Source of the DNA: Lutibacter sp.
GTDB taxonomy: Bacteria; Bacteroidota; Bacteroidia; Flavobacteriales; Flavobacteriaceae
NCBI RefSeq assembly: GCF_016342705.1
Contig: NZ_JAEINV010000015.1
Span: forward strand, 1-64,000
DNA length: 64,000 nt
Direction of reading: 5' to 3'
Shown here: piece after piece, positions 5,255 through 7,527 of the stretch
Layout: every line of letters begins with the position of its first letter
Position numbering within the stretch: the first letter of the stretch is position 1
Notes under the pieces: generated by a model
Database searches by the model: none
Told to the model about the DNA's origin: nothing
Seen by the model: the letters and a program-made list of their open reading frames with translations, nothing else
Translations under genes and position numbers: made by a program

Positions 5255-5908
5255 ATGGTTGAAATAACTAAAAATTTGCAAGAAAATTTTCTTGAAAAAT
5301 TACTTATTGGAAATAGATAGGAATGTTCATTAATAGTGCAATCATTATTAAAAAAGGATGTTTCAATTAAAATTATTTATGAAGATTTATTAAAGGTATC
5401 GCTATACGAAGTTGGTAAACTTTGGGAATACAATAAAATAAGTGTTGCATCTGAACATTTGGCCTCTGCAATTGTTGAAGCAATTTTAAATGATAATTAT
5501 TTAAACATTATTTCTGAAAAAAGGGTCAATAAAAACGTATTACTTTCTTGTGTTGAAAAAGAATTCCATCAAATTGGTGTTAAAATGATTGGTGATATTT
5601 TTGAAATGAATGGTTGGACATCTTACTTTTTAGGGTCTAATACACCTACAAAAGATGTTTTATTATTTTCAAAAACTATTCCTATTGATATTATAGCAAT
5701 TTCACTAAGTATTTATTCTCATTTACCAGAACTTACAAAATTAATTGAGAAATTTAGATTAGAGTTTCCTGAAACTCCTATTTTAGTTGGTGGTCAGGCT
5801 TTTAGGCATGGTGGAGAAAAAACGCTTTTAAAGTATTACAAGGTAATTTATAAACCAGATATAGCTAGCACCGAATTATTTATAAATAAAATAAACACTT
5901 ATGAATAA
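5255..5908 (+). pseudogene. B12-binding protein with CarH-like Wx9EH motif, interrupted by an amber codon
   Basis: Read from ATG 5255, the frame gives a normal B12-binding helical domain start (MVEITKNLQENFLEKLLIGN), hits TAG at 5318-5320, and continues in the same frame to 5908. The uninterrupted part could start at GTG 5336 (190 residues) but then lacks the first helix. In that numbering W30 and E40-H41 form the Wx9EH signature of adenosylcobalamin photoreceptors, H78 in EFHQIG is the cobalt-ligand position (E replaces the usual D), S123 and GG152-153 complete the Rossmann-type B12 pocket. There is no DNA-binding domain. It overlaps the next gene by 8 bases, so these genes were co-transcribed. 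It may be a recent pseudogene, a shortened protein, or a sequencing error. Confidence 0.75.
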
Positions 5909-6356
5909 AGCATATTTATTACAAACTTGCGGAGAATTGAAAAGGTTTTCTGATAAGGCATCTGAAGAATATTTCATAAAATCTGAAGTATTATTATCTG
6001 AAATGAACACCATTATGTTAAAAAGAGGTGACATTAAGGATTTAGTGGGTGAAGAAAATTTATTAATGATGCAAGATAATCACTCCAATCATATCAGATT
6101 TATAGCATCTATATTAAAAGAATTCAATCCGGAAGTATTAGTAGAAACAATACTTTGGGTATTTAGAGCGTATAGAAGCCACGGTTTTTCAACCAATTAC
6201 TGGGCAGCTCAATTAAATACGTGGATTGAGGTGCTTAAAAATCAGCTATCTGCTGAGTCGTATCTAGAAATAAATCCGCTATATAATTGGATGCAAATTA
6301 ATATTCCTATTTTTGTGAAATTATCAGATGATAATTTAGAAATTCCAAACAATTAA
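5901..6356 (+). CDS. Unrecognised all-helical protein in B12/kinase operon
   Basis: 151 residues, no signal peptide, no membrane segment, predicted by eye to be helical throughout. I do not recognise the family. Aromatic-rich stretches stand out: WVFRAYRSHGFSTNYWAAQL (about 94-113) and YNWMQINIPIFVKL (about 128-141). One Cys and several His residues could bind a cofactor, but no known motif is present. It overlaps the B12-binding gene by 8 bases and ends 7 bases before the kinase. An adaptor or second sensor linking the B12 protein to the kinase is inference from position only. Unlike both neighbours, its frame is intact. Confidence 0.8.
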   Translation: MNKAYLLQTCGELKRFSDKASEEYFIKSEVLLSEMNTIMLKRGDIKDLVGEENLLMMQDNHSNHIRFIASILKEFNPEVLVETILWVFRAYRSHGFSTNYWAAQLNTWIEVLKNQLSAESYLEINPLYNWMQINIPIFVKLSDDNLEIPNN

Positions 6357-6363
6357 ATTATTG

Positions 6364-7527
6364 ATGCAAAAAGAAAATGTATTACAATTATTTTTAGATT
6401 TTGAAAAAGAATTTATAGAAACGTTAAGTACATCTAATAATTTTTGCATTGCACTTTTTAATAGAAATAAAGAATTGCTTTTTTCTAATGATGCTTTTCA
6501 AGGACTTATTAAAGGGAAGGCTCCAGAGAGTTTAATAAATCCAACTTTTGATAAACTACTTAAGTTAAATTCTAATAATGCTCTCATTTTTGAAGGAATA
6601 CTAACCATTGGAGATAGTTTTTCAATTAATCCAAGCATAGAAGCCAAAATTTTCAGTAAAAAGAATAAAATTCTGATTTTAGGAGAAATAAGTGCTATTC
6701 ATTTGTTGGAACAAAATGCTACAATGCATCTTTTAAATAATGAAATTAATAACTTACAGCGCAAGTTAATTAAAGAAAAACATTTACTGCAACAAACCCT
6801 AAAAGAGTTGGGAAAGGCGAATGAAGAATTAAGTGAATTGAATGCAACTAAGGATAAGTTTTTTTCAATTATAGCCCATGATTTAAAAAGTCCGTTTAAT
6901 ACAATTTTAGGTTTTAGCGAATTATTGTATTCAAATACGTCAAGTTATTCTCCTGAAAAAAACGAAGAATATGCCGGGCATATTTTTAAATCTGCAAAAA
7001 GTACATTTGATCTTTTGGAAAACCTGTTAGATTGGTCAAGTCATCAAACGGGTAAATTAGCACCTAAAATAGCTCCAATTAATTTACTGCAAGTAATTGA
7101 AAATGTTGCATTACTATGCACGCCAATAGCAAGTTCAAAAAATATTTTATTAGAGCTAAAGTTAGACGAACCACTTAAAGTTCAGGGAGATTCACAAATG
7201 ATAAATGTTATTTTAAGAAATTTGGTAACAAACTCCATAAAATTTACGTATCCGAAAGGAAAAGTGACTGTTGAAACTAAAAATTTAAAGAATGAAGTGG
7301 TCGTAATAGTTTCAGATACAGGAATTGGTATAGAAACTTCAAAATTAAATAAATTATTTTCAATTGAATGTGAGTTATAGGTTAGAGGAACAAATAATGA
7401 AAAAGGAACAGGTTTAGGTCTTATTTTATGCAAAGAATTTGTAGAAATACAAGGTGGAAAAATTTGGGTAGAAAGTGAATTGGGAAAAGGAAGTTCTTTT
7501 AAGTTTACCTTGCCAATGGCTAAATAA
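6364..7527 (+). pseudogene. PAS-type sensor histidine kinase, interrupted by an amber codon before the G2 box
   Basis: The uninterrupted part runs from ATG 6364 to TAG 7378-7380 (338 residues). It holds an N-terminal PAS-like domain, a coiled coil near 120-160, the HisKA box FFSIIAHDLKSPFNTILGFS with His172, the N box near 281 and the G1 box DTGIGIE near 318. Past the amber codon the same frame continues with [20 protein letters not shown] and FKFTLPMAK to TAA 7525-7527, which is the missing G2 box and the end of the ATPase fold. Without it the kinase should not bind ATP properly. There is no membrane segment, so a cytoplasmic sensor is expected. No response regulator lies next to it. Confidence 0.78.

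Follow-up and report, generated by a model that had tools for sequence, protein, structure and literature searches.

The window, by which we mean the whole 64,000-base stretch of DNA analyzed here (bases 1-64000 of contig 12 of the host assembly), carries between priA and rpsF a three-gene operon that encodes a B12-binding protein, a small middle protein, and a histidine kinase, and the first and third of these genes are each interrupted by an in-frame TAG codon. The host assembly (3.63 Mb, 35 contigs, 100% complete, 0.27% contamination) comes from what appears to be a marine Lutibacter-type flavobacterium, the placement in Lutibacter being a probable one. The features of the region are as follows.

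2678 to 5122, forward strand: priA, the left flank, intact and ending in TAG.
5255 to 5908, forward strand: gene for a photosensor-type B12-binding protein, its frame broken at codon 22; assigned by Pfam B12-binding_2 and B12-binding matches, Wx9EH and ExHxxG motifs, and best PDB matches to 8j2x, 8j2w, and 8j2y.
5318 to 5320, forward strand: in-frame TAG at codon 22 of the B12-binding gene, in a column that ranks among the family's most variable.
5336 to 5338, forward strand: in-frame GTG, 15 bases past the TAG, that opens a frame of 190 aa (5336-5908) and is a putative restart site.
5901 to 6356, forward strand: intact middle gene, 151 aa, with a predicted globin/phycobiliprotein-like fold; probable photoglobin-type partner.
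6364 to 7527, forward strand: histidine kinase gene whose frame is broken at codon 339, ahead of the G2 region; assigned by HisKA, HATPase_c, and alignment.
7378 to 7380, forward strand: in-frame TAG at codon 339 of the kinase gene.
7645 to 7995, forward strand: rpsF, the right flank, intact.

A first-pass annotation of this DNA had reported the two TAG codons, recognizable family sequence in the same frame beyond each of them, and an intact middle gene. The positions of both stops are exact, and the rest of the description is also confirmed. When the B12-binding gene (ATG at 5255 to 5908) is read across its TAG, Pfam B12-binding_2 covers residues 9-78 and B12-binding covers residues 95-191. 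The kinase frame runs from an ATG at 6364 to a TAA at 7525-7527 (the program-made list of open reading frames begins it at a TTG at 6361), and its HATPase_c match, which scores 84.4 bits when read across the stop, has profile positions 1-59 before the TAG and 68-110 after it. Neither interrupted gene contains a frameshift, and the middle gene is open throughout.

The Trp, Glu, and His of the Wx9EH motif and the axial His are invariant in all 59 aligned B12-binding proteins, the window's included (locus L074, cut by a contig end, was left out of this alignment), which strengthens the earlier designation of the product as a B12 photosensor. In searches of the PDB, the protein is most similar to 8j2x, 8j2w, and 8j2y (E values of 2.9e-21 to 2.5e-19), with 8jbs, methionine synthases, and CarH ranking lower. 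From the deposited names, we take 8j2x and 8j2w (cobalamin-binding proteins) and 8j2y (a GGDEF protein) to be photocobilin structures. Photocobilins and photoglobins are reportedly also a subject of work by Schneider from 2022. The middle protein has an all-helical predicted fold (AlphaFold, mean pLDDT of 94.7), and the best 50 of its 468 Foldseek matches are phycobilisome proteins, globins, and globin-like sensors (TM scores up to 0.66), with a best E value of 0.036 and none below 0.001 among the matches listed. It belongs to no Pfam or NCBIfam family, and a Pfam scan of 45 middle proteins returned matches of single members only. Weak matches of the middle-protein profile to angiotensin-converting enzyme among solved structures (E values of at least 0.13) were taken as chance.

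We propose that a split photocobilin-like sensor that feeds a histidine kinase is the likely function of the operon, because of the B12 motifs, the matches to presumed photocobilins in the PDB, the globin-like predicted fold of the middle protein, and the pairings described in the literature. Two results count against this reading: the middle protein has no sequence match to the photocobilin chains at E values up to 1, and no heme oxygenase of the PF01126 family was found in the host genome, despite the bilin-protein-like fold predicted for the middle protein. Literature searches on B12 photoreceptors with kinases in Bacteroidetes and on B12/globin/kinase clusters returned no match.

Photocobilins combine a B12 domain and a globin-like bilin-binding domain in one chain, according to the part of PMC10979010 used here; photocobilins and photoglobins are also treated in PMC11796333, likewise used in part. 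Within the descriptions available in these sources, the window's B12 domain resembles the photocobilins and photoglobins in its Trp and Glu-His adenosyl-pocket residues and the photocobilins in its nearest PDB sequences and perhaps also in its partner, whose predicted fold is globin-like. As far as the same descriptions go, the operon differs in that this partner is a separate protein without sequence similarity, the output is a separate histidine kinase, and the host genome lacks a PF01126 heme oxygenase. A B12 domain and a globin-like partner in one polypeptide were not found in the related loci, where the longest open reading frames are 186 aa in the middle-gene cluster and 273 aa in the B12 cluster. 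Separate, neighboring B12-binding and globin genes beside bilin genes are known from BBAG-2, as presented in the portion of PMC10151467 consulted, and the window's B12-binding and globin-fold genes share this arrangement; the third gene in the window, however, is a kinase, whereas that portion describes BBAG-2 with bilin reductases and heme oxygenases.

The protein further shares with CarH the Wx9EH motif and the lower-axial His, and the CarH NCBIfam model matches it with an E value of 3.9e-12, although at 46 bits against a cut-off of 400. Unlike CarH, the window's protein is a standalone protein of 217 aa in which Pfam finds the two B12 domains only and no MerR-type DNA-binding domain.

To place the operon among relatives, we used a genus set of 38 genomes (the host included, one genome per species). 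The B12-binding gene is present (E value of 1e-20 or better) in five of the 38 genomes, one of them the host, and in five of the 29 with completeness of 90% or more and contamination of 5% or less. The other four carriers share genus group g1 with the host and are Lutibacter sp. HS1-25 (G020), Lutibacter oricola DSM 24956 (G009), a Lutibacter metagenome-assembled genome (MAG; G002), and a MAG labelled Gelidibacter sp. (G006). All three genes are open in each of them, the kinase of the Gelidibacter-labelled MAG being of a more distant type (30% identical). Stops initially scored inside the B12-binding genes of L. oricola and the Gelidibacter-labelled MAG are natural C-terminal ends and not premature. 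An 87,022-base contig of HS1-25 is syntenic to the window and carries an intact operon at the same site, in the order priA, operon, rpsF, with sense codons at the two TAG sites that are each one substitution away from TAG. The gap between priA and the B12-binding gene is about 130 bp in the window (5123-5254) and about 70 bp in HS1-25, and the extra part has no clear similarity. In the other three carriers the operon has different neighbors; priA adjoins rpsF in both MAGs, and rpsF lies on another contig in L. oricola.

A wider set of 64 loci (L066-L129, of which L066 is HS1-25), found with the middle gene as bait, comes mostly from Bacteroidota and includes a few loci from other phyla. Damage in these loci was scored as stops inside tblastn alignments, and six loci were inspected closely. 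A B12 match lies upstream of the middle gene in 59 of the 64 loci, a kinase match lies downstream in 57, and both are present in 54. The single stop among the B12 matches, a TAG at position 202 of 205, is a natural end, so that no premature stop was found in the B12-binding genes aligned from these loci. Three of the 57 kinase matches contain stops, none at the site seen in the window. At the columns concerned, the window alone carries a stop, both in the B12 alignment (57 rows) and in the kinase alignment (51 rows, after the removal of two rows for stops and with shorter rows left out). The intact relatives point to a conserved three-gene cassette of B12-binding, globin-fold, and kinase genes, found mostly in Bacteroidota. 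The same cassette, with a standalone Wx9EH B12 protein, a middle protein of about 153 aa, and a histidine kinase, also occurs in MAGs labelled Desulfobulbaceae, Desulfobacteraceae, Spirochaetota, and Ignavibacteriae, and this recurring cassette may be a split photocobilin.

The cassette decays elsewhere too, though not at the window's two sites. Locus L104 (5001-6680) is a decayed copy with no B12-binding gene, a middle gene that is short at the N terminus, and three stops in the kinase, and L119 (5001-6362) is rearranged between the middle gene and the kinase. In L081 (5466-6173), possibly another damaged copy, kinase homology ends after residue 229, near the contig end. The loci L080, L082, and L122 have no kinase match downstream.

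Within the genus set, rpsF was matched in 37 of the 38 genomes, and 30 of these loci were fetched. The genes priA and rpsF are direct neighbors, 83 to 477 bp apart, in 23 of the 30 loci; the operon lies between them in two (the window and HS1-25), and no priA was found in the remaining five stretches. The nearest relative of the host (G035), both by rpsF (99% identity versus 95% for HS1-25) and over the last 300 residues of PriA (93% versus 84%), has priA and rpsF 134 bp apart, with no remnant of the operon found between them. The genome that ranks second by rpsF (G014) yielded a short stretch and was therefore left out of the site comparison. Because the window and the more distant HS1-25 share the operon at this site, loss in the nearest relative is the simpler reading; transfer of the region may be an alternative. 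Synonymous divergence between the window and HS1-25 is 1.10 to 1.28 for the operon genes, compared with 1.30 for priA, 0.33 for rpsF, and 0.68 for rplI. By this measure the operon looks as old as priA in both genomes, which suits vertical descent. With five carriers among 38 genomes and none of the operon in the nearest relative, the operon is dispensable.

The two TAGs could have been introduced by sequencing or assembly error at both sites, as each is a lone one-base difference in a frame that is open everywhere else, and the operon lies 5 to 7.5 kb from a contig end. We consider this unlikely given the clean assembly and the rarity of such stops around it. Among 186 domain matches in the host genome (47 HATPase_c, 44 ABC_tran, 58 Response_reg, 34 Plug, and 3 RF-1, several of which share one protein), the interrupted kinase is the only one with an internal stop, and the other 185 have none. 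Alignment of the window with the HS1-25 contig left 22 rows after those below 45% identity were dropped, namely the three operon genes, one antisense row over the kinase, and 18 rows outside the operon; stops occur only at the two operon sites and once in the antisense row, and none of the 18 flanking rows contains one. Two independent errors, both nonsense and both in one operon, would also be a strong coincidence. We infer that the changes probably occurred in the living organism and not in the assembly.

The 18 flanking syntenic genes end in TAG in five cases (priA and ald among them) and in TAA in 13, and RF1 is present, in agreement with the statement in the first-pass annotation that TAG is an ordinary terminator here and the code is not reassigned. 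The RF1 gene has a full frame of 358 aa with GGQ and PxT, and RF2 has a full frame with SPF, which we take to be the release factor motifs. These observations bear on functional or conditional readthrough, in which a near-cognate or suppressor tRNA would decode both TAGs so that full-length sensor and kinase are made, perhaps tunably. The first-pass annotation had raised this reading and proposed a search for an amber suppressor tRNA as a check on it. None of the 38 tRNAs found in the host genome, all of them typed, has a CTA anticodon. This list is incomplete, since 150 of 375 candidates were scored and tRNA-Ile(GAT) and tRNA-Ala(TGC) are absent from it, and we therefore complemented it with a direct pattern search of the genome for an anticodon loop that carries CTA and is placed as in a tRNA relative to a standard T arm. 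As a control, the pattern recovered 26 of 31 distinct host tRNA sequences with their own anticodons. The search with CTA gave three places, of which one is a tRNA-Arg(TCT) and two hold no tRNA according to ARAGORN. The absence of tRNA-Ile(GAT) and tRNA-Ala(TGC) from a draft rated 100% complete is an observation in its own right; they were perhaps lost with unassembled rRNA operons or are among the unscored candidates.

Recoding structure is not apparent past either stop, as folds that start at the TAGs are no better than those of shuffled sequences (z scores of −1.11 and 0.21). Neither stop is shared by any aligned relative, and a literature search on amber pseudogenes in Bacteroidetes returned no match. 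The sequence evidence thus offers no positive mechanism for conditional readthrough. Several features are nevertheless compatible with it. Codon 22 of the B12-binding gene lies at the 98.5th percentile of variability, with 16 different residues in its column and only two of 85 other stop-accessible codons as variable, and would tolerate almost any residue; the kinase site, at the 37th percentile, is not unusually tolerant. The probability that two random nonsense hits are both TAG is 0.03 (0.41 if any two identical stops are counted), nothing else in the operon is broken, and there is no sign of relaxed selection. Given the intact RF1, the ordinary use of TAG as a terminator, and the lack of a CTA tRNA among those found by either search, we regard readthrough as quite improbable. 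It is hardly credible that the two ambers form a common throttle on sensor and kinase through UAG readthrough (by limiting RF1, a near-cognate tRNA, or a tRNA missing from the draft), which would gate a light pathway by termination efficiency in one species. If the stops are in fact read through, the locus would be a rare natural example of amber control over a whole operon.

To evaluate how long the stops may have been in place, we compared substitution patterns in the window and HS1-25. The dN/dS values are 0.15 for the B12-binding gene and 0.17 for both the middle and the kinase genes, compared with 0.11 for priA, 0.07 for rpsF, and 0.09 for rplI. When only columns that two outgroups conserve are counted, the changes specific to the window and to HS1-25 number 11 and 15 in the B12-binding gene, 15 and 13 in the kinase gene, and 10 and 6 in the middle gene; with three outgroups, the counts are 7 and 8, 4 and 3, and 2 and 3, respectively. 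Maximum likelihood branch lengths for the window and HS1-25 are 0.17 and 0.28 for the B12-binding gene, 0.21 and 0.27 for the kinase gene, and 0.36 and 0.20 for the middle gene. By these branch lengths, the interrupted genes evolve no faster than in HS1-25, and it is the intact middle gene that is, if anything, faster. Neither relaxed selection nor further lesions were detected in the interrupted genes by dN/dS, branch lengths, or the indel check. Because purifying selection is evident in both broken genes and neither is accelerated, the stops would be very young.

Under random neutral decay, additional missense changes and frameshifts would be expected once two nonsense hits have accumulated. 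Given 89 weighted nonsense paths per unit time, the two hits by themselves correspond to a neutral time of about 0.034 substitutions per site, whereas the lack of extra missense changes and indels gives a 95% bound of 0.014 to 0.021 substitutions per site (with the indel ratio assumed to be between 0.1 and 0), compared with an assumed 0.55 for the whole branch. That nothing else is damaged is 0.015 to 0.076 times as probable under a two-hit neutral period as under none, depending on the assumed indel rate. The remark in the first-pass annotation that two hits with no other lesion are unusual therefore holds, but only mildly. The figures for age, chance of TAG, and variability were derived post hoc under simple assumptions; they suggest that the genes are either newly interrupted or not really dead, without separating the two. 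Since two TAGs with nothing else broken are mildly unlikely under random decay, sequencing error and readthrough stay as minor rivals.

We propose that selection maintained a three-gene photosensory operon, composed of a B12 photosensor, a globin-fold partner, and a kinase, until very recently, and that nonsense point mutations in the sensor and the kinase then inactivated it. The kinase TAG would remove the G2 region and the C terminus of the ATPase domain, and signalling output would therefore be lost, presumably along with kinase activity. The sensor TAG would cost the B12-binding bundle its first helix, unless ribosomes start again at the GTG at 5336, in which case a B12 protein lacking its first 27 residues is possible. 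Some function might be kept in this way, with only the kinase dead, or a truncated kinase might serve as a binding partner or a dominant negative. The in-frame GTG and the intact middle gene are compatible with such partial function, but a restart cuts into B12-binding_2 and the sequence lends no support to a role for the kinase stump, and we consider it very improbable.

The reading that we favor, with a probability of roughly 0.8, is that a dispensable photosensory operon was inactivated by nonsense mutations very recently. Among the possibilities that the first-pass annotation had listed, a recently silenced light or B12 signalling operon is the best supported, by the intact syntenic copy in HS1-25, the single substitutions that separate its codons from the stops, the lack of relaxation, and the absence of the operon from the nearest relative. 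Most likely, the locus represents ordinary gene loss caught early and not a new genetic code, mildly striking in that there are two TAGs and nothing else. The closest counterparts of the operon are recent bacterial pseudogenes of the nonsense-inactivated, species-specific kind. The operon resembles them in its premature stops by single substitution, its intact orthologues in a relative, and its accessory character, being absent from the nearest relative; it differs in having no frameshift or relaxation yet and in having two nonsense hits, both TAG, in one operon. The locus may offer a snapshot of the first step in the loss of a signalling pathway, in which two nonsense hits precede visible relaxation.

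Elsewhere in the window, a dnaB-like gene (40304-41827) shares its last 86 bases with a frame of 460 aa (41742-43124) that has no Pfam match at an E value of 0.001.
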